57,966 bases of DNA from an uncultured Spiribacter sp. (lineage in GTDB: Bacteria > Pseudomonadota > Gammaproteobacteria > Nitrococcales > Nitrococcaceae). Shown here piece by piece: positions 1 to 49,281 of the stretch (position 1 is the stretch's first letter; every line of letters begins with the position of its first letter). The translations under genes and the position numbers were made by a program. The stretch is taken from NCBI GenBank assembly GCA_937884605.1, contig CALGDM010000026.1, forward strand, positions 1-57,966, written 5' to 3'. The notes under the pieces are model-generated. The model had not been told where the DNA came from. It did no database searches and was given only the letters and a program-made list of their open reading frames with translations.

Positions 1-2153
1 TCTCGTGTTACACCTGCGACGGTGACGTGATCCCGGCCGAAATCTCGGGGACGCGTGTCATGGTCGACGGCAGCCAGCACCTACTGGCGAGTATTCGGGA
101 TATTTCGACCCGCGTCGACCAGCGCGAACGCCTCGGTCGACAGGCCGCTGCAATGAAAGCGGCCACTGATGGGATCGCTATCTACACCGAAGACGGTGAG
201 GTCGTCTACGCGAACCAGGCCTACGCCGAACTGTTCGGCGTCGGGTCGCCCGAGGCAATCATCGGCGAGACGTGGGAGGACCTCCACGCCGAACAGCAGC
301 GGTTTGCCCTCGGCATTACTTCGGAGCTGTCGTCGACCGGCGAGTGGCGCGGTGAGGTAACTGCAAGGACGGGCGATCGACAGCGGCCGCTCGAAGCCTC
401 ACTCACCCGGCTTGAAACCGACGAGATCCTTTGTGTGGCCCACGATATTTCGGCGCAACTGGCTCACGAACGCCAGCTTACAGGGTTGGCATCCGCGAGC
501 CGCGAACTGTTGGCTGCTGAAGATTGCGAGGCCGTGAGCGCGGTTGCCGTCGACACTGTCGTCGACGTACTGGATTTCGAGCTAGCCTGTCTGCGACGCT
601 ATGACGAAACGACAAACGAGTTGACAATGGGTTCGATCTCGGAGGCCGCCGAGCGGCTCCGAGCCGAAGCGATTGCCTACGATCTCAACAGTTCGCGGGC
701 TGGAGCGGCCTACCGGCGTGGTGAGACAGTGCGCAACGAACTGAGTGACGACGCGTACGCAGCTGGTGCCGAGCGGGCGGATCTCCACGTCCCCGTAGGG
801 AACTACGGCGTGTTGAGCGTCTTCGAGCCGAGCGGATCGTTCAGCGACCAGGGGGTCCAACTGGTCGAACTCTTTGCCGAGTCAGTACGGGCGGCGTTCA
901 TTCAGGCCGACCGCGAAACACAGCTTCGGAGCCGACAGACGGAACTCGAAGCTCGGACCGACGAGCTGACTGTCGCCAGCCAGTTCAACGAGCTGGTCAC
1001 CGAGCTGATCGAACTCATGTTGCGGACACCCCACCGCAGAGAGATCGAGCGGGTAGTCTGTGAGGGGCTCGCCGACTCTGATTTCTACGCGGCTGCGTGG
1101 ATTGCCACCGTCAACAGCGAGGCTGACAGCGTCGAGGTCTCGACACACCGGGTCGACACCGATCCCTTCACCGAGACTGATCCGGCAGCGTTCGTCGCTT
1201 CACCGTTCGCCGAAGCGCTTGTGCGGGAGGCTAGTGAAACGGGTGCGCCAGCCATCAGCCGTCGGCAGCTCGACTCGGCGGAGCCGAGTGCTGGTGGTAA
1301 CGGGCCAACTGGCAATGGAGTCGACGAGACGCTCGCCGCAGCGGTGCCGATTGCGGTCGGCTCACGACGCTTCGGGGTATTGACGGTCGCTGGCACCGAC
1401 GACCGCGGCTTCGGCGAGAGTGTCCGTAACGGACTCCGGCTCTTGGGCGAGACACTCGGCTTCGCGTTCGTTCTTGAAGCGACCCGTGCGACGCTCATCG
1501 CTAACGACGCTATCGAACTGGAGTTCGCGGTCACCGAACGGTTCGCCGAACTCTCGGCGGCGCTTGATTGCCAATGCCTGTATGCGGGGTCGACAACGAC
1601 TGATGCAGGACGCCGGACCTACCGCATCAGAATCCGTGGAGCCGACTGTGCGGACGTCATCAGGCTCCTCGAATCCAGCCCCGGCGTCACTGACTGCCAG
1701 CGGCTCGACGACAAAGACAACGGCTGTCTGCTCGGTGTGACTGTCGACGATCCAGCTCCCGAGATCCTCGCTGATGCCGGGGTGAATCTCCGGTCGCTGG
1801 TCGCCGAAGACGGTGAGTCCCGGCTTGTCGTCGAAGCCCCCGAGGACATCGACGTGGGCGAACTGCGCTCGCGGCTCGCCGAACAGTACGGCCCGGTTCG
1901 ACTTGTCTCGAAACAGCACGGTCGACGGGCCAAATCCATCGATTCCATCGGCGACGAGCTCGTCGAGCGGCTCACCGACAAACAGCTCACTGTCTTAGAG
2001 ACTGCCTCGGAGTTGGGGTACTACGACTGGCCACGGGAGGCAACTGCCGAGGAGGTCGCCGCCGAACTCGGGATCGCCTCGTCGACGCTTCACCAGCACC
2101 TTCGGGCCGCAGAGGGCAAACTTGTGGCGGCCTTTTTTGATTCCCGTCGGTAG
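1..2153 (+). CDS. Bat-like PAS/GAF/HTH_10 regulator, haloarchaeal type (5' partial)
   Basis: Signal-sensing transcription regulator of the kind common in haloarchaea (bacterioopsin-activator-like family). The frame is open to the left edge, and a GTG at 27 lies inside the end of a PAS domain, so the gene is truncated by the window and its start is not visible. Counting from that GTG: end of a first PAS domain (~1-30), a second PAS domain (~38-145), a GAF domain (~155-295), a coiled linker, a second GAF-like domain (~325-480), a Bat-associated domain (~490-640) and a C-terminal HTH_10 (~650-702) with the motif LTDKQLTVLETA. The protein is highly acidic and the DNA is rich in GTCGAC-type words, unlike the genes after 2.5 kb. 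Its target genes cannot be told from the sequence. Family assignment is secure; the ligand is unknown. Confidence 0.85.
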   Translation, partial: SCYTCDGDVIPAEISGTRVMVDGSQHLLASIRDISTRVDQRERLGRQAAAMKAATDGIAIYTEDGEVVYANQAYAELFGVGSPEAIIGETWEDLHAEQQRFALGITSELSSTGEWRGEVTARTGDRQRPLEASLTRLETDEILCVAHDISAQLAHERQLTGLASASRELLAAEDCEAVSAVAVDTVVDVLDFELACLRRYDETTNELTMGSISEAAERLRAEAIAYDLNSSRAGAAYRRGETVRNELSDDAYAAGAERADLHVPVGNYGVLSVFEPSGSFSDQGVQLVELFAESVRAAFIQADRETQLRSRQTELEARTDELTVASQFNELVTELIELMLRTPHRREIERVVCEGLADSDFYAAAWIATVNSEADSVEVSTHRVDTDPFTETDPAAFVASPFAEALVREASETGAPAISRRQLDSAEPSAGGNGPTGNGVDETLAAAVPIAVGSRRFGVLTVAGTDDRGFGESVRNGLRLLGETLGFAFVLEATRATLIANDAIELEFAVTERFAELSAALDCQCLYAGSTTTDAGRRTYRIRIRGADCADVIRLLESSPGVTDCQRLDDKDNGCLLGVTVDDPAPEILADAGVNLRSLVAEDGESRLVVEAPEDIDVGELRSRLAEQYGPVRLVSKQHGRRAKSIDSIGDELVERLTDKQLTVLETASELGYYDWPREATAEEVAAELGIASSTLHQHLRAAEGKLVAAFFDSRR

Positions 2154-2166
2154 CTGTCTACCCAAC

Positions 2167-2182
2167 ACCGATGTATCTCGGT
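2167..2182. promoter_or_regulatory. inverted repeat, possible operator
   Basis: A perfect 5-bp dyad (ACCGA, 6-bp spacer, TCGGT) lies between the Bat-like gene and the HxlR-type gene. HxlR-family regulators often bind palindromes near their own promoter, so this could be an operator, but it may equally be a transcript-end hairpin or chance. A weak TATA-like CATATCTA follows at 2197-2204. Confidence 0.2.
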
Positions 2183-2246
2183 AGGGGTGTGGCCGACATA
2201 TCTAGGAGCGGTAACCAAGGAGATACTCGGTGATCGTAGTAATACG

Positions 2247-2512
2247 ATGGCGACGAACTGCTCTACACACGGCCGACAGTACGGGACTGACAGCACCGCA
2301 CAGGGGACGCTGATCGAGATAGCCTCGATTATTGGTCACAAGTGGTACCCGGTGATCCTCCACGAGCTGTGTGTTGAGGATGACCGCGGCTTCAGTGAGC
2401 TCCACGATGCTATCGACGGGGTCTCGAACAAGATGCTGTCGGACAGTCTCTCGGCGCTCGAAAGCGAAGGACTGGTCGACCGGGCGGTCGTCAGCGACAA
2501 GCCGGTGCGGGT
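2247..2512 (+). CDS. HxlR-family winged-helix regulator, haloarchaeal type (3' truncated at chimeric junction)
   Basis: N-terminal ~88 residues of an HxlR-type winged-helix DNA-binding protein. The ATG at 2247 is preferred over the in-frame GTG at 2187 because the HxlR fold begins just after it. Recognisable segments are IIGHKWYPVILHEL (first helix), FSELHDAIDGVSNKMLSDSL (recognition helix region) and [19 protein letters not shown] (start of the wing). In family members the wing continues with a VEYxLT-like strand and a final helix. Here the frame instead enters MscS sequence after DKPVRV, so the wing end and last helix are missing. Composition matches the upstream haloarchaeal gene. Probably a complete gene in its true genome, cut by an assembly join. 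Confidence 0.8.
2496..2512. other. putative chimeric junction (shared DKPVRV-coding stretch)
   Basis: The 17 bases here encode DKPVRV, which fits the wing of haloarchaeal HxlR proteins and also the entry to the MscS beta domain. To the left the protein and base composition are haloarchaeal; to the right everything is gammaproteobacterial. A short identical stretch shared by two co-assembled genomes would produce exactly this in-frame switch. Read mapping across 2450-2560 is decisive. Confidence 0.75.
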
Positions 2513-3191
2513 TGGTGACTTCTGCACGTTCGGCAGCATGAGTGGCACGGTCGAGGGGGTCGGGATCCGATCGACCCAGATCCGCGCCCTGAACCGCACA
2601 TTAATCTCGGTACCCAACGCGAAGTTTGTCGACATGGAGATCGTCAACTGGGCGCGTTGCGACACCATGCTGATTGAGGCGACGCTGGGGCTGCGCTACG
2701 AGACCTCGGACGACCAGCTGCGCTATGTCCTTATCGGCATTCGCGAAATGCTGCACGCGCACCCCCGAATCGAGGAATCCACGATTCGTGTGCGCTTTGC
2801 CGGCTACGGCGAATCCTCGCTTGATGTCAGCGTGCGCATCTACGCGCTCACCCGTGACTGGAACGAGTTCTACGCCATTCGCGAGGATGTGAACTTTCAT
2901 ATCAAGCGCATCGTTGAAGCCTCCGGCACGGGGTTCGCGTTGCCCGCCAGCGTTATGTACACGGCCAGAGACGGCGGACTCGATGAGGAACGCACGGCCG
3001 AGGCCGAGGAGGCTGTGGCGAAGTGGCGCCACGAAGGCATGTTGGCCTTTCCCCGCCTGACACTGGAACAGATCGAGCGTTTGCGGGGTACCGTCGACTA
3101 TCCGCCGGAGGGCTCATCGGAACGGGCCCAGGAAAGAAGCCGGCAGAGAGAGGAATCCGAACCATTGTCCGATCCCGAGTCGAGGTCCTGA
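2496..3191 (+). CDS. MscS-family mechanosensitive channel, C-terminal part (5' truncated at junction)
   Basis: Soluble C-terminal half of a small-conductance mechanosensitive channel, which in intact form releases solutes from the cell on hypo-osmotic shock. The visible part starts at the beta domain: [10 protein letters not shown], then [19 protein letters not shown] and [19 protein letters not shown], followed by the alpha/beta domain and a charged tail. All membrane helices, including the pore-lining TM3, are absent because the frame upstream is HxlR. About 230 residues remain of a family that usually runs to 280-550. It cannot make a channel as drawn. It is followed at 3247 on the same strand by gor. 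The most likely explanation is an intact gene whose 5' half lies on another contig. Confidence 0.8.
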
Positions 3192-3246
3192 GCCATGGCT
3201 ATGCCAGAATGGCGGCTCAGACACTCATCGACAGCAGGAGCCGGGA

Positions 3247-4611
3247 ATGAGCGGCAAGCAATACGACTATGACCTGATCTGCATTGGCGGCGGCAGTGGC
3301 GGGATCGCCACCGCGCGGCGAGCGGCCGCCCATGGTGCCCGCTGCGCCGTGATCGAAGCGTCACGGCTGGGGGGCACCTGCGTGAACGTCGGTTGCGTGC
3401 CCAAAAAGGTCATGTGGCAGGCCGCGCACAGCCGCGAGGTAATGGCCCGCGCCGCGGATTACGGCTTTAGCGGCGTCACGCCGAGCCTTGACTGGGGCGC
3501 CCTGGTCAGTGCCCGTGAGGGCTATATCGAGCGCCTGAATGGCATCTACGATCGCAACCTGGGCAATTCAGGTGTGGATCTTATCCGCGGTCAGGCGCGC
3601 TTTACCGATCCGCATACCGTTGAGGTGGACGGCCAGTCCTATCGTGCCGAGCGCTTTGTGATCGCCACCGGCGGCACCCCGGGGCGGCCCGGCATCCCGG
3701 GCGGCGATCTGGGCATTGATTCGGACGGCTTTTTCGAGATGACCGATCGGCCACAGAAGGTAGCGGTGGTCGGTGCCGGCTATATTGCGGTCGAGCTGGC
3801 CGGTGTGCTCCATCAGCTGGGCAGCGACGTGCAGCTGGTGGTGCGACGGGAAAAGCCCCTGCGGGGTTTTGATGCCGCCATTCAGGATGCCTACGTCGAA
3901 TCCATCGAGGCGCATGGCCCGACGCTGGTCAATCATTTTACGCCGGCGGGGCTTGAGGCCGCCTGGGGCGGCTATACGCTGCACGGATCGGACGGCCGCA
4001 CGCTGGAGGGCCTGGATCAGGTGATCTGGGCGGTGGGTCGGCTGCCCAATACCGATGAGCTGGGACTGGACGCGGCGGGCGTCCGGATGGACGCCGGCGG
4101 CACCATTCCGGTGGATGAGTGGCAGTCGAGCAACCAGCCGCATATCTTTGCGCTGGGCGATGTCACCGACAATCCCTATCCGCTGACACCAGTGGCGATT
4201 GCCGCGGGTCGGCGCCTGGCCGATCGGGTCTGGGGCGGGCAGAACGACCGCCGTCTGGCCTACCGCGACGTGCCCACCGTGGTGTTCACGCATCCGCCCA
4301 TCGGCAGTGTGGGACTGACCGAGGCCGATGCCCGTGCCGCCCACGGTGATGCCGTGCGCGTCTACGAAACCCGGTTTGTGCCCATGGACTTTGCCCTGGC
4401 GCCCGCCGAAGCCAAGCAGCGCAGCACCATGAAGCTGGTCTGCGTGGGCGATGACGAGCGCGTCGTGGGCGTGCACCTGTTTGGGGTCGGCAGCGATGAA
4501 ATGCTGCAGGGCTTTGCCGTGGCCGTGCGCATGGGGGCCACCAAGCATGACCTGGATGAAACCGTCGCCATTCACCCGACCAGTGCCGAAGAGCTGGTCA
4601 CCCTGACCTGA
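3247..4611 (+). CDS. gor: glutathione-disulfide reductase
   Basis: NADPH-dependent flavoenzyme that reduces oxidised glutathione in the cytoplasm. At 454 residues it has normal family length. An N-terminal FAD motif ([13 protein letters not shown]) is followed by the redox-active disulfide [14 protein letters not shown]. The NADPH-binding motif [11 protein letters not shown] has downstream arginines ([12 protein letters not shown]) that are typical of NADPH rather than NADH specificity. The second FAD motif is [18 protein letters not shown], and the C-terminal [11 protein letters not shown] supplies the catalytic histidine and glutamate of the partner subunit. The start has a good ribosome site (AGGAG, 7-8 bases upstream). 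The next gene follows after 16 bases and may be co-transcribed. Confidence 0.95.
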
Positions 4612-4627
4612 GACCGAGGGTGTCGCG

Positions 4628-5158
4628 ATGATTGAGACCTATCAGGGCATTGCCCCGCAGGTGGCCGCCTCGGCCTGGATCCATGACAGCGCGGTGGTGA
4701 TTGGTGATGTCCGGCTCGGTGCCTCGGTGTCGGTCTGGCCGACGGCCGTGCTGCGGGGGGACGTGCACCGCATCGAGGTGGGCGCCCAGACCAATATCCA
4801 GGATGGCGCGATCGTCCACGTGGCCCATGAAGGGCCGTATCAGTCGGGACATCCGGCGATCATTGGTGCGGCCGTCACCGTGGGGCACCGGGCCATTATT
4901 CATGCCTGCCACATCGGCGATCGTGTGCTGGTGGGTATGGGGGCGACGGTGCTGGATGGCGCCCATGTGGGGGATGAGGCGATTCTGGGGGCCGGTGCGC
5001 TGGTGCCCCCCGGCAAGCAGCTCGACGGGGGCTATCTGTATCTGGGCAGCCCGGCGCGGGCGGTGCGTGCGCTCGATGATCGCGAGCGCGAGCAGCTGGC
5101 CTACTCCGCGCGTCATTACGAGTCCCTGATGGGGCGTCACCGCGGCGGCGGCGACTGA
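4628..5158 (+). CDS. gamma-carbonic anhydrase-like hexapeptide-repeat protein
   Basis: Left-handed beta-helix protein of the YrdA/PaaY/CaiE branch of gamma-carbonic anhydrases. The 176 residues contain repeated hexapeptide turns such as AVVIGDVRLGASVSVWPTAV and ALVPPGKQLDGGYLYLGSPA, the usual family ending. Probable metal ligands are the histidines in IVHVAHEG, TVGHRAIIHACHIGD. Many such proteins bind zinc or iron, but the YrdA branch often has little measured activity, so catalysis is uncertain. It follows gor closely, and its last 22 bases overlap the end of the convergent antiporter gene. Confidence 0.85.
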   Translation: MIETYQGIAPQVAASAWIHDSAVVIGDVRLGASVSVWPTAVLRGDVHRIEVGAQTNIQDGAIVHVAHEGPYQSGHPAIIGAAVTVGHRAIIHACHIGDRVLVGMGATVLDGAHVGDEAILGAGALVPPGKQLDGGYLYLGSPARAVRALDDREREQLAYSARHYESLMGRHRGGGD

Positions 5159-6393
5159 TCGGGTCCGGTCAGGTTGGGTGGCGTGATCGGGTTGGCGGCC
5201 AGCTGACGCTGGACGATGCTGGGGGTGATGGCGCAGGTGGCCAGGGTGACCAGGGTCATTGCGCCGTAGAGCGCCGGCGGCACGACGTTGGGCCCGTAAC
5301 GGCCAGCCTGGTCGACAATGACCATCGCGATTTCGGCCCGCGGCACCATGCTCATGGCAATGACCAGCGCGCTGGATCGGGGGGCCATGAAACGCGCCGG
5401 CAGGGCGGTACCGATCAGTTTGCCGAGTACCGCCGCCACCAGCAGAACCGCTCCGGCCCCCAAGGCGCCGGTCAGGGCTTCGGGCTCGAGCTTGAGACCG
5501 ATGCCGATAAAAAAGAACGGCGCGAGAAAGTCATAGAGCACGCGATAGCCGCGATCCTGGCGGATCTTTCGCGGCGCCTTGCTGAATACCAGTCCCGCAA
5601 ACAGCGCGCCGACCGCCAGCGAAAATCCAAGCATGCCGGCGAGGGCGGCGATCAGGCTGCCCACCGCGACCACGATCAGCATGCGTGTGGGCGAGCGCTC
5701 GCGGCGGATGAGCCCCCGCGTCATGGGCGGCTCGACCCAGTGAGCAAAGGCATAGCAGCCCGCCGTGAAGGCGGCGAGGCTCGCCAGCAGCCCGGCGCCG
5801 GTGGTGGTTGCCGCGGTCCAGTCGACGCCATTGCCGCCGGTCAGGGTCGGGATGATTGCCAGCAGCAGCGCCATCAGCACCACGCCCGAAATGTCATCGA
5901 GCTCGGCCACGTCCAGCACCAGCGCCCCCTGCTCGCTGCGCAGCGCGCCGGCGGCCTGCCAGGGCGGCAGGGCCACGCCGATGCTGGTGGCGGTCAGGGC
6001 GACGCCGGCGACCAGTGCGGGCACGTTGGCAAAGCCGGCCCAGCGCGCGGCGTAGTAGCCCATCGCCCCCGAGACCAGCACGCTGACCAGCCAGATCAGG
6101 CTGGCACCGGGGAGCTTGTCGAGCAGCCGTCGCGGATTGCTGCCCAATCCCACCCGAAACAGCAGGGCGACCAGGCCGAGGGCGGCGAGTAGATCGAAGG
6201 CGCCCTGCACCGCCGGGGTCAGCAGCGGCACCACATCGTGGAGCAGTCGCAACCCCAGGCCGATGAGGATGTACCCGACCAGCGCCGGGATTCTCAAGCG
6301 CTCGCAGAGGTGTCTGAGCACGATGGCGAGCAGCGTGACGCCGCCCACCAGCAGAACCAGTAGTGAGTCAGGTGTAGCGCTGGCCTGGATCAT
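5137..6393 (-). CDS. cation:proton antiporter, CPA2 (KefB/NapA-like) membrane domain
   Basis: Integral membrane protein of 418 residues with about a dozen hydrophobic segments, starting with a helix at LLVLLVGGVTLLAIVL. The family motif region includes GYILIGLGLRLL and ALLFRVGLGSN in the first half, and LDVAELDDISGVVLMALLLA, whose acidic pair is likely the ion-binding site of the antiport core. It has no C-terminal TrkA-N domain, unlike the larger Kef-type protein at 47578; the tail is a short proline-rich segment. Exchange of Na+ or K+ for protons is expected, useful in a saline habitat, but the cation cannot be read from sequence. It lies 9 bases downstream of aroE on the same strand and overlaps the carbonic anhydrase-like gene tail to tail. 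Confidence 0.85.
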   Translation of the reverse strand: MIQASATPDSLLVLLVGGVTLLAIVLRHLCERLRIPALVGYILIGLGLRLLHDVVPLLTPAVQGAFDLLAALGLVALLFRVGLGSNPRRLLDKLPGASLIWLVSVLVSGAMGYYAARWAGFANVPALVAGVALTATSIGVALPPWQAAGALRSEQGALVLDVAELDDISGVVLMALLLAIIPTLTGGNGVDWTAATTTGAGLLASLAAFTAGCYAFAHWVEPPMTRGLIRRERSPTRMLIVVAVGSLIAALAGMLGFSLAVGALFAGLVFSKAPRKIRQDRGYRVLYDFLAPFFFIGIGLKLEPEALTGALGAGAVLLVAAVLGKLIGTALPARFMAPRSSALVIAMSMVPRAEIAMVIVDQAGRYGPNVVPPALYGAMTLVTLATCAITPSIVQRQLAANPITPPNLTGPDQSPPPR

Positions 6394-6402
6394 CCACGCG
6401 GA

Positions 6403-7221
6403 TCAGGGACGGGTGTCGTTGCGCAGGGTCTCGATGACCGGGCCGGTGCTGGGCCGGATGCGGCGCCAGAGCTCGAAGGCGCCGGCGGCCTGCTCGACCA
6501 GCATGCCCAGCCCGTCGCGGATGCGATAGGCGCCATTGGCCTCGGCCCAGCGCAGAAACGGCGTTGGCTCGGCGCCATAGAGCATGTCGAAGGCGGTGGC
6601 TCCGTCGCCGACGATACTGGCCGGGAGGTCGGGCACGTCGCCTTCAAGTCCGCTTGAGGTGGCGTTGATGACCACCTCGAAGCGCTCGCCGGCCAGCTCG
6701 TCCAGTCCGCAGCCTTCAATATTGCCGGCATCGGCAAAGGCCTGAGCCAGGGTCTGTGCGCGCTCGGGGGTGCGGTTGGCGATCACCAGGCTGGCCGGGT
6801 TTTCGTCGAGCAGCGGCATCAGTACACCGCCCGCGGCGCCGCCGGCGCCAATCAGCAGGATGCGCTTGCCGGCAAGGCCGACGCCCAGATTGTTGCGCAG
6901 GTCGTTGATCAGCCCCTCGCCGTCGGTGTTGTCGGCGTAGATGCCCTCGCCAAAAATCAGGGTGTTGACGGCACCCGCGCGCTCGGCGCGGTCACTGCGC
7001 TGATCGGCCAGAGCCCAGGCCTCCTCCTTGAACGGCACCGTGATGTTGGCGCCATGGGCGCCCTCGGCGCGAAAGGCGTCAATCGCCGCGGCGAGCCCAT
7101 CCAGGGGGGGCTCGCGCCGGGTGTATTCGATCTGCTGAGCGGTCTCCTCGGCGAACAGCGCATGGATGCGCGGCGACAGCGAGTGATCGATGGGATGGCC
7201 GAAAACGGCATAGGAATCCAT
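6403..7221 (-). CDS. aroE: shikimate dehydrogenase
   Basis: NADPH-dependent reduction of 3-dehydroshikimate to shikimate, in the common aromatic amino-acid pathway. The 272 residues match E. coli AroE in length. Visible motifs are the substrate-binding GHPIDHSLSPRIHALF, the catalytic-lysine segment NITVPFKEEA, the substrate aspartate in NTDGEG, the nucleotide loop GAGGAAGGVL, and NRTPERA for the NADP phosphate. It sits in the minus-strand run after hemB, with a 23-base gap. Two other shikimate-pathway genes (aroK, aroB) are about 10 kb upstream on the same strand. Confidence 0.95.
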   Translation of the reverse strand: MDSYAVFGHPIDHSLSPRIHALFAEETAQQIEYTRREPPLDGLAAAIDAFRAEGAHGANITVPFKEEAWALADQRSDRAERAGAVNTLIFGEGIYADNTDGEGLINDLRNNLGVGLAGKRILLIGAGGAAGGVLMPLLDENPASLVIANRTPERAQTLAQAFADAGNIEGCGLDELAGERFEVVINATSSGLEGDVPDLPASIVGDGATAFDMLYGAEPTPFLRWAEANGAYRIRDGLGMLVEQAAGAFELWRRIRPSTGPVIETLRNDTRP

Positions 7222-22203: not shown

Positions 22204-24543
22204 ATGTCGGTCATCATTCGGCGCTCACTGCAAATGCTGGCGGGGCTGGCCTCGCTGGGGCTCCTGGCAGCCGGTGGCATGATTGCCGCCTATATCCTGC
22301 TGGCGCCCGGGCTGCCCAGCGTCGAGTCGGTGCGCAATGTCGAGTTGCAGGTGCCGCTGCGCGTCTACACCGCCGAGGGCGAACTCATCGAGGAGTTCGG
22401 CGAAGTGCGGCGGACGCCCGTCAATCTCTCGGATATCCCGACGACCCTGATCGATGCGTTCATCGCCGCCGAGGATCAGCGTTTCTATCAACATCCCGGG
22501 GTTGATTATGAAGGCATCGCCCGGGCCGTCTGGTACCTGGTTCGCACCGGTGAGAAAGGACCGGGCGGCAGCACCATCACCATGCAGCTTGCCCGCAACC
22601 TGTTCCTGAGCTCCGAGCAGACCTACCTGCGCAAGCTCCGCGAAATCTTTCTGGCGCTGCGCATCGAGCAGCAGCTCGACAAGCAGAAGATTCTCGAGCT
22701 GTATCTGAACAAGATCTATCTGGGCCAGCGGGCCTATGGCGTGGCAGCGGCCGCGGAGGCCTATTACGGACGTCCCCTGGCGGAGTTGACGCTGCCCGAG
22801 CAGGCAATGATCGCCGGGCTGCCCAAGGCCCCCTCGGCTTCCAACCCGCTCGCCGATCCGGACGAGGCGCTGAGCCGACGTGCCTATGTATTGGGGCGCA
22901 TGCTGACAACCGGCGTGATCGACCAGGAGCGCTACGAAAGCGCCATGGATCAACCCATCACGGCCGACCGGCACCGTCGCGAACCCGGCGTTGACGCGCC
23001 CTATGTCGCGGAGATGGTGCGTGCCCAGCTGGTTGAGCGTTTCGGCCGCACCCCCGCCTACACCGAGGGCTATTCGGTCTACACCACCGTCTCGGCCGAG
23101 CGCCAGCGCGAAGCCCGTCAGGCCTTGCGCTCGGGGCTGCACGCCTATGATGAACGCCACGGCTATCGAGGCCCGCTGGCGCAACTTGACCCGGCGCTCA
23201 TCGACGGACCCCGCGCGGCGTTGCTGGATCGGTTGTCCGGATTTCCGCGTCCGGGAGCGTTACGCGTGGGTGTGGTGACTGCGCTCGAGGACACCGGGGC
23301 CACGCTGCTGACTGCGGCAGACGAGCGTCTTGCGCTGCCCTGGGCGGGAATGCAGTGGGCGCGGCCGCAACTCGGCCGCAATGCCATGGGGCGCAATCCC
23401 GACGCTCCGGGTGATGTGCTCTCGGTGGGGGATGTCGTGTACGCCCGCGAGACCGATGACGGCTGGCGGCTGGCCCAGCTGCCCGAGCCCCAGAGCGGGC
23501 TGGTCGCCATGACCCCGGATACCGGGCGGATCCGCGCGCTGGTCGGCGGCTATGATTTTTCGTTCAGCAAGTTCAACCGCGTTACTCAGGCCGCCCGCCA
23601 GCCCGGTTCGGCCTTCAAGCCGTTGATCTACTCGGCGGCGCTTGCCAATGGCCTGACGCCGGCGACGCTGATCAACGATGCGCCAGTGGTGTTCGCCGAT
23701 GCGGCGCTCGAGGATGTCTGGCGCCCCGAGAATTACAGCGGCCGAGTGTTTGGTCCGACCCGGCTGCGCGAAGCCCTGACCTATTCCCGCAATCTGGTCT
23801 CCATTCGGGTGCTGCGCCGGGTGGGCATCAGCCCCACGCTGGCGCACCTCCAGCGCTTTGGCCTGCCCCGCGAGCGTTTGCCGCGCAACCTGTCGCTGGC
23901 ACTGGGGGCCGCCGAGGTCACGCCCCTGGAACTGGCTCGTGCGTACGCGGTGTTCGCCAATGGCGGCTATTCCATCGAGCCGCATGTCATTGAACGGATT
24001 GTCGACAACGACGGCGAAACCGTTGCTGAACAGTCCCCGGCCGAGTCCGACGAGCGGCCTCGCGCGATCAGCGCCGACAATGCGTGGCTGATGCGCTCGA
24101 TGCTGCGCGATGTGGTCGAAGAGGGCACCGCCCGCCGGGCCAGCGAACTGGGGCGCTCGGACATCGCCGGCAAGACGGGCACCACCAATGACCAGAACGA
24201 TGCCTGGTTTTCGGGGTTTAATGGTGATCTGGTGACCACGGTCTGGGTCGGCTTCGACGAGCGCCAGAGTCTGGGGCGTTATGAAACCGGCGGTCGTGCC
24301 GCCTTGCCCATCTGGATGGACTTCATGGGTGAGGCGCTCGCGGGGCGCCCTGCGTCGGAGTGGTCGCGCCCCAGCGATCTGGTGACCGTGAAAATCGACC
24401 CCGAGACCGGCGAGCGGGTCAGCGGTGATGTCGGCGACGCCCTGTACGAGACCTTTCGTACCGATCACCTCCCGCCACCGCCCGCGCCCAGTGACGATGG
24501 CTCGTCGGGTCGCACCGGGGGGGCGGACGACCCTCTTTTCTGA
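22204..24543 (+). CDS. mrcA: penicillin-binding protein 1A
   Basis: Bifunctional peptidoglycan glycosyltransferase and transpeptidase anchored in the inner membrane. An N-terminal helix (LQMLAGLASLGLLAAGGMIA) is followed by the GT51 domain with the catalytic glutamate in AAEDQRFYQHPGVDYEG and GGSTITMQLARNLF. An OB-like insert follows, then the transpeptidase domain with the serine nucleophile in QPGSAFKPLIYS, YSRNLVS as the SxN motif, and KTGTTNDQNDAWFSGF as the KTG motif. I chose the ATG at 22204 (779 residues); a GTG at 22186 would add six, and the frame is open much further upstream only opposite pilM. PBP1A beside pilMNOPQ is a conserved arrangement. Confidence 0.94.
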   Translation: MSVIIRRSLQMLAGLASLGLLAAGGMIAAYILLAPGLPSVESVRNVELQVPLRVYTAEGELIEEFGEVRRTPVNLSDIPTTLIDAFIAAEDQRFYQHPGVDYEGIARAVWYLVRTGEKGPGGSTITMQLARNLFLSSEQTYLRKLREIFLALRIEQQLDKQKILELYLNKIYLGQRAYGVAAAAEAYYGRPLAELTLPEQAMIAGLPKAPSASNPLADPDEALSRRAYVLGRMLTTGVIDQERYESAMDQPITADRHRREPGVDAPYVAEMVRAQLVERFGRTPAYTEGYSVYTTVSAERQREARQALRSGLHAYDERHGYRGPLAQLDPALIDGPRAALLDRLSGFPRPGALRVGVVTALEDTGATLLTAADERLALPWAGMQWARPQLGRNAMGRNPDAPGDVLSVGDVVYARETDDGWRLAQLPEPQSGLVAMTPDTGRIRALVGGYDFSFSKFNRVTQAARQPGSAFKPLIYSAALANGLTPATLINDAPVVFADAALEDVWRPENYSGRVFGPTRLREALTYSRNLVSIRVLRRVGISPTLAHLQRFGLPRERLPRNLSLALGAAEVTPLELARAYAVFANGGYSIEPHVIERIVDNDGETVAEQSPAESDERPRAISADNAWLMRSMLRDVVEEGTARRASELGRSDIAGKTGTTNDQNDAWFSGFNGDLVTTVWVGFDERQSLGRYETGGRAALPIWMDFMGEALAGRPASEWSRPSDLVTVKIDPETGERVSGDVGDALYETFRTDHLPPPPAPSDDGSSGRTGGADDPLF

Positions 24544-33689: not shown

Positions 33690-35768
33690 ATGACCGAGGG
33701 CGCCGCCGCGTCGGGCACGCCGGTGGCCCGCTTGCCGGGGATCGGTCCACGGCTCGCCGAGAAACTGGCGCGGCTGGGGCTCGAGCGGGTCGAGGACATG
33801 CCCTTTCACCTGCCCAATCGCTACGAGGATCGCACCCGGGTGCGGGCCATCGGCGAGCTGGTCCCCGGCGTGGCGGCGCTGGTGGATGGCACGGTAACCG
33901 CGGTGGAGATCGTGGGCGGGCAACGCCGGCGGCTGATCTGTCGCATCAGCGACGGCACCGGCAGTCTCGAGCTGGTGTTCTTTCATTTCTACGCCAGTCA
34001 GCAGCGCCAGATGGCCCGCGGCGTGTCGCTGCGGGTGTTTGGCGAGGCCCGTGCCGGGCCGGTGGTCCTGCAGATGGTCCATCCCGACTGGCAGCGCGTG
34101 GAGGCCGGTGCCGCTCCCGCGCAGGGCGAGTTCAAGCCCGTCTATCCGGCCACCGAGGGTGTGACCCAGGCGGCGCTGCGGCGGGCCATTGCGGCCGCAC
34201 TGGCACGACCCGGCGCCGTCACCGAGTGGTTGCCCGCGCCGCTGCGCGCATCCCTGGATCTGCCATCGCTGGACACGGCGCTGGCGCAGGTCCATGCGCC
34301 GGCCGCCGATAGCGATGTCGATGCACTGCTCGAGGGGCGGCACCCAAGCGTGCGGCGCCTGGCCTTCGAGGAACTGCTGGCCCACCGCCTCAGTCTGCTG
34401 CGCCTGCGCGCCGCCCAGCAGCAGGTCATGCCCGCGCCGGTGATTGGTGAGGACAGGGCCGGGGCAGCGCGTTTTCTGGACGGGCTGGGGTTTGAGTTGA
34501 CCGGCGCCCAGCAGCGCGTGCACGCCGAGGTGCTGGCCGATCTGGGCCAGGCGGTGCCCATGCTGCGACTGGTGCAGGGCGATGTCGGCTCGGGCAAAAC
34601 GGTGATCGCGGCGCTGGCCGCCCTGCATGCCGTGGCCGCCGGCTGGCAGGTGGCGATCATGGCCCCCACCGAGCTGCTCGCCGAGCAGCACGAGCGCAGC
34701 TTTCGGGACTGGCTCGAGCCCCTCGGGTTGCGGGTCGGCTGGCTGAGCGGCCGCGCTGGAGCCGCCCAGCGGCGGGCCACGCTGAGCGGGCTGGCCGCCG
34801 GCGACATCCAGGTGGTGGTGGGCACCCACGCGCTGTTCCAGGCCGATGTGGTGTTCCAGTCGCTGGGCCTGGTGGTGATCGACGAGCAGCATCGCTTCGG
34901 CGTCCATCAACGTCTGGCGTTGCGGGATAAGGGCAGCGACCGTCACCAGCCCCATCAGATGGTGATGACCGCCACACCCATCCCGCGCACGCTGGCGATG
35001 ACCGCCTACGCCGATCTGGATACTTCGGTGATCGACGAGTTGCCGCCGGGGCGTTTGCCCGTGCAGACCGTCGCCCTCCCGGACACCCGCCGCGAAGCCG
35101 TCATCGAGCGCATTCGGGCGGTCGGCGCGCAGGGCCGGCAAGCCTACTGGGTGTGCACCCTGGTGGAGGACTCGGACTGGCTCGAAGCCGAGGCGGCCGA
35201 AGCCACCGCTGAGCGACTGCGCGAGCAACTGCCGGGGCTGAGTATCGGGCTGGTGCACGGGCGCCTGTCGGCGTCCGCCAAAGAGCATGTCATGGCGCAA
35301 TTCGAGGCCGGCGAGATCGATCTGCTGGTGGCCACCACCGTCATCGAAGTGGGTGTCAATGTCCCCAACGCCTCGCTGATGATCATCGAGAATGCCGAGC
35401 GGCTGGGTCTCTCGCAATTGCACCAGCTGCGCGGCCGGGTGGGGCGCGGGCATGCCCGAAGCAGCTGCGTGCTGCTGTACCATGGTCCGCTGGGCGATAC
35501 GGCCCGGGCGCGCCTGGGCGTGCTGCGCGAGAGCAACGACGGATTTCGCATCGCCCGGCGCGATCTCGAAATCCGTGGCCCCGGCGAAGTGCTGGGCACG
35601 CGCCAGACCGGGGCGCTGACCTATCGGATTGCGGATCTGACCCGCGACGGCGATCTGCTGGACTCGGTCCAGGTGGCGGCGCGCGAGCTGCTCGACGCCG
35701 ATCCGGTGGCCGTGTCCGAGTTGATTCGCCGCTGGGTGGGCGAGGGCGAGCGTTACGCACAGGTATGA
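33690..35768 (+). CDS. recG: ATP-dependent DNA helicase RecG
   Basis: Double-stranded DNA translocase that reverses stalled replication forks and processes recombination intermediates. The 692 residues match E. coli (693). The N-terminal wedge/OB domain (about 1-230) includes LPGIGPRLAEKLARLGLERV; the helicase core has Walker A QGDVGSGKTVIAALAAL, the DEQH-type box LVVIDEQHRFGVHQRLAL and motif III MTATPIPRTLAMTAYAD. The later motifs include VHGRLSASAKEHVMAQFEAG, LVATTVIEVGVNVPNA and HQLRGRVGRGHARSSCVLLY. It starts 3 bases after ridA. Confidence 0.96.
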   Translation: MTEGAAASGTPVARLPGIGPRLAEKLARLGLERVEDMPFHLPNRYEDRTRVRAIGELVPGVAALVDGTVTAVEIVGGQRRRLICRISDGTGSLELVFFHFYASQQRQMARGVSLRVFGEARAGPVVLQMVHPDWQRVEAGAAPAQGEFKPVYPATEGVTQAALRRAIAAALARPGAVTEWLPAPLRASLDLPSLDTALAQVHAPAADSDVDALLEGRHPSVRRLAFEELLAHRLSLLRLRAAQQQVMPAPVIGEDRAGAARFLDGLGFELTGAQQRVHAEVLADLGQAVPMLRLVQGDVGSGKTVIAALAALHAVAAGWQVAIMAPTELLAEQHERSFRDWLEPLGLRVGWLSGRAGAAQRRATLSGLAAGDIQVVVGTHALFQADVVFQSLGLVVIDEQHRFGVHQRLALRDKGSDRHQPHQMVMTATPIPRTLAMTAYADLDTSVIDELPPGRLPVQTVALPDTRREAVIERIRAVGAQGRQAYWVCTLVEDSDWLEAEAAEATAERLREQLPGLSIGLVHGRLSASAKEHVMAQFEAGEIDLLVATTVIEVGVNVPNASLMIIENAERLGLSQLHQLRGRVGRGHARSSCVLLYHGPLGDTARARLGVLRESNDGFRIARRDLEIRGPGEVLGTRQTGALTYRIADLTRDGDLLDSVQVAARELLDADPVAVSELIRRWVGEGERYAQV

Positions 35769-45715: not shown

Positions 45716-46669
45716 ATGAACCGATATATCGACGCCACTTCCAATCCTGCGACGGGCGCCACGGCGGTCCTGCAGCATGCCGTCCAGCACTGGCGTGACT
45801 ACTACGAGCTGACCAAGCCGGGTGTGGTGGCATTGATGGTGTTTACCGCGCTGGTGGGCGAACTGCTGGCGAGTCCCGGCGCCATTCCCTGGACCGCGCT
45901 CACGCTGGGTAACCTGGGGATTGCCCTGGCCGCCGGTTCCGCGGCGGCCATCAACCATCTGGTCGATCGGCGCGTCGATGCGCGCATGAAGCGGACCGAG
46001 GGCCGTCCTCTGCCCACCGGTGGGCTCCGCACCCGTGACGCCAGCCTGTTTGCCGGGGTGCTGGGGCTGGCCGGTCTGTCGATCCTGTACTTTATGGTCA
46101 ACCCGCTGACTGCCTGGCTGACCTTTGGCTCGCTGATCGGCTATGCGTTCATCTACACCCTGTTCCTCAAACGCGCCACGCCCCAGAATATCGTGATCGG
46201 TGGCGCGGCGGGTGCGGCACCGCCGGTGCTGGGCTGGGTGGCGGTCACTGGCAGCGTTGACGCCCACGCCCTGCTGCTGTTTCTGATCATCTTTACCTGG
46301 ACGCCGCCGCATTTCTGGGCCCTGGCCATTCATCGGCGAGAGGAATATGCCAGCGTCAACATCCCGATGCTGCCGGTCACCCATGGCGATCGGTTCACAC
46401 GCTGGCAGATCCTGTTCTACACCGTGCTGCTGGTGGGGGTGACGTTGATGCCGTTTGCCACCGGCATGAGCGGATGGCTGTATCTGGCCGGGGCGCTGGT
46501 GCTGGGGGCGCGGTATCTGTGGTTTGGCTATGCACTGCTGGCCCGTCCCAACGACCCGTCACTGCCGATGAAGTCGTTCGGCTTTAGTATCGTCTATCTG
46601 ATGGCGCTGTTCGCGGTGCTGTTGCTGGATGCGTATCTGCCGGTGATTCTGGCGCCCCTGATGGGGTAG
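45716..46669 (+). CDS. cyoE: heme O synthase (protoheme IX farnesyltransferase)
   Basis: Adds the farnesyl tail to heme B; the product goes to CtaA. The ATG at 45716 (2 bases after the ctaA stop) gives 317 residues with about nine helices. It has the [20 protein letters not shown] motif for Mg-prenyl-diphosphate, [20 protein letters not shown] and [18 protein letters not shown]. Also called ctaB or cox10. It closes the oxidase and heme A cluster and ends 6 bases from the convergent usp gene. Confidence 0.95.
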
Positions 46670-46675
46670 ACCCGC

Positions 46676-47521
46676 TCAGAGAATGAGCAGGTCGAGTGGC
46701 GAGTCGTTCAGCAACCGCCTTGTCACGCTGTAGCGGAGTATGGCCTCCGGGCTGGTCCGCCCGCGCGGACTGAGCACCAGCAGATCACCCCCCTCCCGCT
46801 CGGCCAGAGAGATCAGCGCGATGTCCATGGGGCGGGGGTCTGTCTCGACACGCTCACCCACTGCGCCGAGTTTTGAGTCCAGCGCCAGACGGTGCAGGGC
46901 TTGCGCGGCCTGGGTCTTCTCCTGGGCCAGGGCGAGATCCCGGGCGGCATCGGTCATGCGGTTTGCGGTCACCGGGCTTTGATCCGAAGCCCCGATGATA
47001 TGGACAAGATCGGTCGATGCCGCGTCGAAAAGCCGACAGGCGGCCAGCGCATCGAGGCGTCCCCGCGCGCCATCGGTGAGGTCGGTGGCCACGACCAGTC
47101 GATGATAGGCCTCGATGGGTGCGCTCTGGGCGACCAGAATCGGGCACGGGGCATGCGCGATGATCCGCTCGGAGGTTCCGCCCAGAAACAGATCACGGAG
47201 CGCCCGCCGGCGATGACGACCCAGTACGAGCAGGCTCGTGTTGTCAGTCACCGCCGCCCTTATTCCGGCGTCAACGCCCCGGGCATGTTGTACCTCGGCC
47301 ACGCAGCCGACACCGTCGCTGGTCTCGATCGTTCGTGCCAGGCGCTGTAAGATCGAATTGGCCTGTTGGTGGTGGGCATCGATCACCGCGCTCGGCTGGT
47401 CGGCGTCAATGACGTGCACCAGCCTTAGTGGCAGGTCGTGCTGACGGGCGAGCAGGGTGGCGCGTCTCTGGGCACGCTCGGCGCGAGGACTCAGATCCGT
47501 TGCCACCAGCAGTTCGGTCAT
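46676..47521 (-). CDS. tandem universal stress protein (UspA) domain protein
   Basis: Two Usp domains in 281 residues. The ATG at 47521 (GGAGG seven bases ahead) gives the usual opening MTELLVATDLSPRAERAQRR. The first domain ends with the ATP-loop-like pattern VLGRHRRRALRDLFLGGTSE and RIIAHAPCPILVAQS; the second opens YHRLVVATDLTDGARGRLDA and ends in VLSPRGRTSPEAILRYSVTR. Such proteins bind ATP or AMP and help survive stress. It is divergent, over 56 bases, from a Kef-type antiporter, and Usp proteins elsewhere are known to regulate cation transporters; a link here is inference. Confidence 0.9.
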   Translation of the reverse strand: MTELLVATDLSPRAERAQRRATLLARQHDLPLRLVHVIDADQPSAVIDAHHQQANSILQRLARTIETSDGVGCVAEVQHARGVDAGIRAAVTDNTSLLVLGRHRRRALRDLFLGGTSERIIAHAPCPILVAQSAPIEAYHRLVVATDLTDGARGRLDALAACRLFDAASTDLVHIIGASDQSPVTANRMTDAARDLALAQEKTQAAQALHRLALDSKLGAVGERVETDPRPMDIALISLAEREGGDLLVLSPRGRTSPEAILRYSVTRRLLNDSPLDLLIL

Positions 47522-47577
47522 GGCCGCCTCCGGGTGTGGCCCATCGGGATCGACAGACTCATCGGGAGCCTTCATCC

Positions 47578-49281
47578 ATGGAATTCATGCTCCACTCGGC
47601 GTTCGCCGAAGTCGCCACCCTGCTGATGCTGGCGGCGGTGATCGGCTTTGCGGGCCTGCTGCTGCGCCAGCCGTTGATTGTCAGCTTTATCGCAGTAGGG
47701 ATTGTTGCCGGGCCCTCGGTGCTGGATATCGTCCATGCCGAGGCCCAGATTGAACTGCTCTCCGAGCTGGGAATTGCTGTCCTGCTGTTTCTGGTGGGCA
47801 TCAAGCTCGATATCAAGCTGATCCGCTCGCTGGGGTCGGTGGCAGTGATGACCGGTCTGGGCCAGGTCGCGTTTACCGCCGGCCTGGGGTTTGTCATCGG
47901 GATGGCCCTGGGCATGGACGCGGTCACCTCACTGTACGTCGCCGTTGCACTTACGTTCTCCAGCACGATCATCATTGTCAAGCTGCTCTCCGATAAGCGC
48001 GAGATCGACTCGCTGCATGGCCAGATCGCGCTCGGCTTCCTGATTGTCCAGGATCTGGTGGTGGTGCTGGCCATGATTGTTCTCTCGACGCTGGGAATCG
48101 GCAGCGAGGGCGGGGGTGGCGCCGGCGACATCGCGCTGGTGCTGATGGCCGGCGTGGTCCTGGTCGCACTGGTGATTGCGTTTGTTCGCTACGTCGCCGA
48201 CCCCCTCAGCGCGCGGCTTGCCCATGCCCCCGAGCTGCTCGTGATCTTTGCCATCGCCCAGGCGACCGTGTTTGCCACCGTCGCCGACGTCATCGGGCTG
48301 GGCAAGGAGTTGGGCGGGTTGCTGGCCGGTGTGTCGCTCGCCTCAACGCCCTATCGAGAGACAATTTCAGCGCGGCTCGCGCCGCTGCGTGATTTCCTCT
48401 TGCTGTTTTTCTTCATCTCGCTGGGTGCGACCCTCGACATGAATCTGCTCGGGCAGCGGCTCGGCGATGCATTGATCTTTTCGGCCTTTGTGCTGATCGG
48501 CAATCCATTGATCGTGCTCGTGATTATGGGGGTCCTCGGCTACCGGCGGCGGACCGGTTTTCTGGCGGGGCTGACGGTCGCGCAGATTTCGGAATTTTCG
48601 CTGATCTTTATCAGCATGGGGCTGGCGCTGGGGCATGTGAACGAGGAAGCGCTGGGGCTGGTGACCCTCGTGGGTCTGATCACCATTGGGCTATCGGTTT
48701 ACATGATCACGTATTCCCAGCGGTTATATGACGGGCTGGGGCCGTACCTCGGCGTATTCGAGCGGGCCAACCCGGTGCGGGAGCCTCATTCCGCCGCGTT
48801 CCGGGGCGGCGGGGACGCCGAGGTGATCATCTTTGGAATGGGGCGCTTTGGGGCGGCCATCGCCCTGCGCCTGCAAAAGCAGGGGCTTGCCGTCATTGGC
48901 GTCGATTCCAACCCGCGGGCGGTCCAGCGCGCCCACCGCCTCGGTTTGCAGGCCGAGTACGGGGATGCCACCGATGCGGAGTTCATCGCTTCGTTGCCCA
49001 TCGAGCATGCCCAATGGGTGATCAGCACCCTGCCACGCTACCCGACGGGTCTGAGCCATGAGGACAGTCGTCACACGCTGGCCCAGCTTGTGCGTGGCCA
49101 CCCATTCACTGGTCGCATTGCCATCGCCTCGCACAATGAGCGGGATACCGAAGAGCTGCGCGAACGGGATGCCGACCTGGTGCTCGAGCCGTTTCAGGAT
49201 GCGGCGGATCGCGCGGTGGAACTGATCCAGGGCGCCGCCCCGACCGGGCGAACGCCGATCCCGCCGATCGTCGACGACTGA
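47578..49281 (+). CDS. Kef-type cation:proton antiporter with C-terminal TrkA-N domain
   Basis: CPA2-family transporter of 567 residues. The membrane part (about 1-390) includes ELGIAVLLFLVGIKLDIKLI, FLIVQDLVVVLAMIVLSTLG (with the conserved QD site), and GLTVAQISEFSLIFISMG. The cytoplasmic part (about 415-530) is a TrkA-N/RCK domain: EVIIFGMGRFGAAIALRLQ, VIGVDSNPRAVQRAHR and YGDATDAEFIASLPIEHAQW. K+/H+ exchange controlled by nucleotides is expected; glutathione control as in KefB/C is not evident. It is the larger of two CPA2 proteins in the window and is divergent from the usp gene. Confidence 0.9.
   Translation: MEFMLHSAFAEVATLLMLAAVIGFAGLLLRQPLIVSFIAVGIVAGPSVLDIVHAEAQIELLSELGIAVLLFLVGIKLDIKLIRSLGSVAVMTGLGQVAFTAGLGFVIGMALGMDAVTSLYVAVALTFSSTIIIVKLLSDKREIDSLHGQIALGFLIVQDLVVVLAMIVLSTLGIGSEGGGGAGDIALVLMAGVVLVALVIAFVRYVADPLSARLAHAPELLVIFAIAQATVFATVADVIGLGKELGGLLAGVSLASTPYRETISARLAPLRDFLLLFFFISLGATLDMNLLGQRLGDALIFSAFVLIGNPLIVLVIMGVLGYRRRTGFLAGLTVAQISEFSLIFISMGLALGHVNEEALGLVTLVGLITIGLSVYMITYSQRLYDGLGPYLGVFERANPVREPHSAAFRGGGDAEVIIFGMGRFGAAIALRLQKQGLAVIGVDSNPRAVQRAHRLGLQAEYGDATDAEFIASLPIEHAQWVISTLPRYPTGLSHEDSRHTLAQLVRGHPFTGRIAIASHNERDTEELRERDADLVLEPFQDAADRAVELIQGAAPTGRTPIPPIVDD

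Follow-up and report, generated by a model that had tools for sequence, protein, structure and literature searches.

An in-frame HxlR-MscS fusion at the end of a bacterial contig is almost certainly an artefact rather than a new protein

Background

Contigs assembled from mixed DNA can carry the sequence of two organisms. Part of PMC7299287 describes how k-mers shared between genomes link their assembly graphs and can yield chimeric contigs, how an iterative assembler takes its small-k contigs as reads for the next, larger k, and how several assemblers resolve such chimeras with read pairs; simulated assemblies, as presented in a portion of PMC3901335, contain chimeric contigs at all taxonomic levels, with a tendency toward close taxa. 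The case that concerns us is alike in that sequence of two organisms stands in one contig, with the shared k-mers named in PMC7299287 as a possible cause. It differs from the mostly close-taxon simulated chimeras of PMC3901335 in two respects: the partners belong to different domains, and a reading frame happens to stay open across the place where they meet.

The window is the whole of one contig (C26; 57,966 bases) of a 1.80-Mb genome in 30 contigs, which is rated 91.48% complete and 0.11% contaminated. Near its left end an open frame begins as one protein and finishes as another, the join lying 2.5 kb from that end, and each part has a known relative. Residues 1-89 are 57% identical over 89 positions to an HxlR-like protein encoded by the Halorubrum salinarum plasmid pHAR01 (region L025), with an alignment that ends at KPVRV; the gene order is the same, but the end of the domain and the tail are missing here. 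Residues 83-314 resemble the C-terminal part of an 818-aa MscS/MscK-like channel encoded by another genome of the genus, G013 (72% over 234 positions including gaps), and the gene downstream is also alike; the first 626 residues of that channel are absent here, although their counterpart up to G013 residue 312 is to be found on a different contig, C27. A keyword search of the literature for an HxlR-MscS fusion matched one paper only, on the Natrialba magadii genome, in which each term is mentioned once. We consider that the fused frame is very probably not a gene of any organism, but a chimeric contig end produced by an assembly join.

The reading frame and its domains

A single frame of 314 codons runs on the forward strand from an ATG at 2247 to a stop codon ending at 3191 (a 334-aa version could start at an in-frame GTG at 2187). 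Pfam places HxlR (PF01638) at residues 28-89, with E-values of 1.1e-12 to 1.6e-12, followed by the MscS β domain (PF00924, MS_channel_2nd) at residues 82-137 and the MscS C-terminal domain (PF21082, MS_channel_3rd) at residues 144-227. The two MscS domains are both present (profile positions 13-68 of 68 and 2-85 of 88, respectively), but the winged helix is not whole: its match covers positions 1-61 of the 91 in the profile, leaving out the last third, and the C-terminal tail is lacking as well. The preliminary description of this frame, as 88 N-terminal residues of a haloarchaeal HxlR continued by the C-terminal half of an MscS channel, is borne out by the Pfam matches and by separate homology searches with the two halves, and the remark that neither half is complete is equally apt: 82 HxlR-like residues stand here in place of the 626 that precede SDKPVRV in the G013 channel. 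The pore-lining transmembrane helix of MscS sits just before the β domain. The product of the fused frame, were it made, would keep the MscS domains and may be soluble.

Table 1. Features at the left end of the window and what each rests on
Feature	Coordinates	Strand	Evidence
Foreign haloarchaeal segment, left contig end	1..2490		tblastn, blastn, tetranucleotide score, absence from relatives
Bat-like regulator (PAS, GAF, BAT, HTH_10), 5' end lost at contig end	3..2153	+	Pfam BAT E 1.2e-27, HTH_10 E 1e-21
5' 88 codons of haloarchaeal hxlR, cut at join	2247..2510	+	Pfam HxlR; 57% identity to Halorubrum protein
Join, 22 bp that fit either parent	2491..2512	+	G013 homology from 2491; haloarchaeal matches to 2512
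3' part of native MscS/MscK-like channel gene: β domain, C-terminal domain, tail	2511..3191	+	Pfam; G011 and G013 homology
Glutathione-disulfide reductase (gor), native downstream neighbour	3247..4611	+	NCBIfam NF004776 E 2e-180, above cut-off; same order in G013
γ carbonic anhydrase-like hexapeptide protein, next native gene	4628..5158	+	NCBIfam NF050158 E 9.6e-48, below curated cut-off; same order in G013

The haloarchaeal left end

What lies to the left of the join is a Bat-like regulator gene, truncated by the contig end, and the beginning of the hxlR-like gene. A tblastn search with the Bat-like protein hits 197 plasmid records, and in 11 the match extends over at least 80% of the query; the ten commonest genera among these matches are all haloarchaeal. 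Bases 1-2700 match 18 plasmid records in blastn, every one of them haloarchaeal by name; the hxlR part is matched in three of these records, and in all three the alignment stops at 2512. No search recovered the genome of the haloarchaeal parent itself, the best plasmid relative of the Bat-like protein (from Halorubrum salinarum) being 47.8% identical over the whole query. When the same protein was compared with genome contigs, two archaeal loci were matched through just its last 60 or so residues, and scans of viral contigs turned up no relative. Among the 22 other genomes of the family there is no copy of the segment, and the Pfam BAT domain occurs once in the whole genome: in this gene.

A bat-like gene is followed directly by an hxlR-like gene in two of three haloarchaeal plasmid regions (Halorubrum and Halomarina), as it is in the window; in a Salinigranum plasmid the hxlR-like gene does not come directly after the bat-like one. 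The adjacent pair, with its PAS/GAF regulator, can be seen at L025:2340-5288 and L026:1391-4252, and possibly constitutes a conserved regulatory pair.

Composition tells the same left side from the rest of the genome. On a tetranucleotide scale bases 1-2490 score +0.153, outside the range of 121 native chunks of the same 2.49-kb length (-0.392 to -0.067) and within that of 55 haloarchaeal chunks (-0.012 to +0.351): the composition of the segment is haloarchaea-like. The preliminary description had called everything left of the join haloarchaeal and had proposed this comparison with the rest of the stretch; both homology and composition fit the 2.49 kb that are available. (A technical note: composition in 500-base steps does not place the join, for the windows remain slightly haloarchaea-like through the one starting at 2701 and turn negative only from the one starting at 2801. 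Codon usage, expressed in nats as haloarchaeal over bacterial, gives +77.8 for the bat-like gene, +10.1 for the hxlR part, 0.0 for the mscS part and -114.5 for gor; these values constitute weak evidence, since the codon tables come from mechanically listed frames, some of them surely spurious, and they do not separate the mscS half by source.)

The bacterial right side

The genus comparison drew on 14 genomes, the window's own among them. Close copies of the MscS part are present in two others, G011 (84% identity, residues 1-224 of the 226 in that part) and G013 (90% for residues 1-155, with a second piece at 199-226); the remainder yield weak matches or none. At the DNA level the window resembles G013 at 85% over the first 482 bases (2491-2972) and at 88.8%, collinearly, over the 54.9 kb from 3117 to 57966. 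The intervening bases, 2973-3116, have no long match in G013: the C-terminal tail is longer here, and 40 gap positions appear in the protein alignment. The G011 DNA match runs through this tail (2491-3446, 78%). Is everything on the right gammaproteobacterial, as had been claimed? Collinearity with G013 to the contig end upholds the claim in the main, with qualifications: 2973-3116 is unmatched, and identity to G013, otherwise 89% in the alignment, is 0.77 in the 1-kb bin at 20 kb and 0.69-0.79 in the bins at 46000-48999. The label "gammaproteobacterial" itself rests in part on protein families.

Two minor features of the right side may be recorded. A 40-base insertion relative to G013 at 23370-23409 is the only gap of at least 30 bases inside the BLAST alignments. 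The only tRNA that ARAGORN finds in the window is a tRNA-Asp (gtc) at 33902-33996, called at 95 bases; that is long for a tRNA-Asp, and the call may be a poor one.

The other half of the channel gene

In G013 the channel is encoded by one intact gene (L028:4653-7109), which lies between a gene for a 679-aa protein and gor. Used as a query against the window's own genome, the G013 region splits in two: bases 1-5589 align with the minus strand of C27:1-5580 at 87%, and from base 6529 it matches C26 from 2491 onward. The 939 bp between these pieces found no match in the genome among the candidates scored, which were 40 of the 194 obtained at first look. C27 carries a 287-aa frame that starts at 862 on the minus strand and runs off the contig end at 2 (L032); its product shares 80% identity with the G013 channel over residues 24-312 of the latter. 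The same 679-aa gene adjoins the channel gene on C27 and in G013; its product, which presumably is an M3-peptidase-like protein, carries an HEFGH motif. The native channel gene is accordingly split in the assembly, with its 5' part at the end of C27, its middle lost, and its 3' part on C26 from 2491, and the haloarchaeal 2.49 kb occupies the place of the lost middle. It is because the 5' part of the channel gene is on C27 that we set the odds of an artefact so high.

The 22-bp join

The peptide at the join reads SDKPVRV, as it does in the native channel of G013; the Halorubrum HxlR has SEKPVRV. Native-channel homology begins at 2491 and hxlR homology ends at 2512, and the stretch that both parents could have supplied is on that account 22 bp long. 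The preliminary description had the place right, in the DKPVRV-coding sequence, but gave the extent as 17 bp (2496-2512). The figure of 22 bp is a bound drawn from relatives, the haloarchaeal parent itself not having been found; G013 has an exact copy of the 19-mer at 2491-2509, and the G011 sequence departs from it at three positions. Both genes read the shared stretch in the same frame, and the fused frame stays open across the join for that reason. About one third of random same-strand coding joins would be in frame in any case, and the in-frame state should need no further explanation.

How frequent are words of this length in pairs of such genomes? A comparison of 579 kb of native DNA with 138 kb of haloarchaeal DNA, on both strands and with overlapping matches merged, yielded 39 exact shared matches of 17 bp, 12 of 18, one of 19, two of 20 and one of 23; cumulatively, four matches are at least 19 bp long, three at least 20, and one at least 21. 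(A smaller sample with overlaps unmerged shared seven 19-mers, three 21-mers and two 22-mers.) The 23-bp match joins the window's gor gene to a plasmid mercury reductase gene; these are related genes, so the match is not due to chance, and with the lone match of at least 21 bp thus explained, chance matches of 21-22 bp must be rarer than the count implies. Scaled up by the product of lengths to genomes of 1.8 and 3 Mb, these counts correspond to about 270 shared words of 19 bp or longer and about 67 of 21 bp or longer, the second figure deriving from that one match. For words of at least 21 bp a fair estimate per genome pair is no more than some tens, and many genomes are present in a sample. 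Genomes of this kind not uncommonly share exact words of 19-23 bp.

How the fusion could have arisen

From the outset the preferred explanation was that the assembly had joined DNA of brine organisms occurring together, and it gains from four observations: the 5' part of the channel gene on C27, the position near a contig end, the 22-bp overlap, and the intact gene in G013. The frame, the domains and the switch site of the in-frame haloarchaeal HxlR/bacterial MscS chimera at 2247-3191 are confirmed; the different origins of its halves are shown by homology and by tetranucleotide composition, and the true continuation of one of them is elsewhere in the same assembly. A plausible course of events is that a short-read assembler using a small k (about 21) at some stage would walk out of the middle of the channel gene, where assembly had been poor, and, at the shared word, pass into haloarchaeal sequence from the same sample; the false path would be kept if the true continuation were missing or thin. 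A first round with k near 21 would meet false branches of this kind. (The k-mer walk is something we infer.)

A chimera could also have formed outside the assembly graph, in the library or during amplification (by ligation of fragments or by template switching), or through a wrong merging of contigs after assembly. Template switching, too, uses short shared stretches, and the join has such a stretch and lies near a contig end; but a single chimeric molecule should rarely outvote the true reads, and a join between k-mers needs no such molecule. We regard it as unlikely. The biological conclusion is the same in either case, the fusion being absent from any cell, and with the two origins taken together we are nearly certain that the fusion is an artefact.

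Might haloarchaeal DNA instead have recombined into the channel gene of a bacterium and created a genuine HxlR-MscS fusion? Uptake of haloarchaeal genes by halophilic bacteria is possible, no stop codon interrupts the frame at the join, and the shared 22 bp could serve recombination as well as misassembly. Against this, at the end of C27 the native 5' part of the channel gene still has its normal neighbour; the haloarchaeal segment and its BAT domain have, as noted, no second occurrence in the family genomes or in this genome, respectively; none of the 258 plasmid records matching the 314-aa protein covers 80% of it, and among the 25 matches listed of these 258 none begins before residue 55; finally, composition and a look at the outliers, covering 51 of the other 59 contig ends, yielded no second segment that is demonstrably haloarchaeal. 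A real transfer was held from the beginning to be much less likely than an assembly join, and that judgement stands, with the C27 piece as its mainstay: we think such a transfer very improbable. We are equally disinclined to believe in its variant, cross-domain recombination at the 22 bp in one strain while others of the population kept the gene intact. A mixed population, most cells having the intact gene and a minority strain the haloarchaeal insertion, would make C27 and C26 both true, and would account for the 5' part on the one and the foreign end of the other; C27, however, breaks 939 bp before the join rather than at it, and C26 ends within the foreign segment, leaving the far flank outside the contig. 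This is the least credible of the readings, and the chance we allow it is minute.

Almost certainly, then, the HxlR-MscS fusion is no new protein but an artefact. Foreign DNA at a contig end passes the usual quality figures, as the 0.11% contamination of this genome cautions, and a chimera of this sort might find its way into protein databases as a "novel domain fusion" or be taken as evidence of cross-domain gene transfer. Checking the ends of the other contigs for the missing half provides a quick test for chimeras that dispenses with the reads.

Other contig ends

The 51 contig ends examined, with the window's own right end among them, are all the others except the right ends of C9, C18, C19, C21, C22, C25, C28 and C30. 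Of the native 1-kb windows (1112 in all), 19 have a positive tetranucleotide score and a single one exceeds 0.1, and several of these lie where a contig ends; since some native windows score above 0, composition alone is not specific for foreign DNA. Open frames in seven high-scoring stretches include several with type IV pilin-like N-termini and others that we take, from motifs as in the case of the pilins, to be epimerase-like or tRNA-synthetase-like. At the end of C10, which has the highest score, both flanks match genomes of the genus, with short matches between them, and six of the 13 other genomes show some match. This end is the one that was searched in the genus, and the outlying ends are not counted as further joins. 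Unusual composition and pilin-like frames go together at L074:8001-10000 (the end of C10), L050:7908-9133 and L059:2-580; variable pilin-like genes may be places where the assembly breaks.
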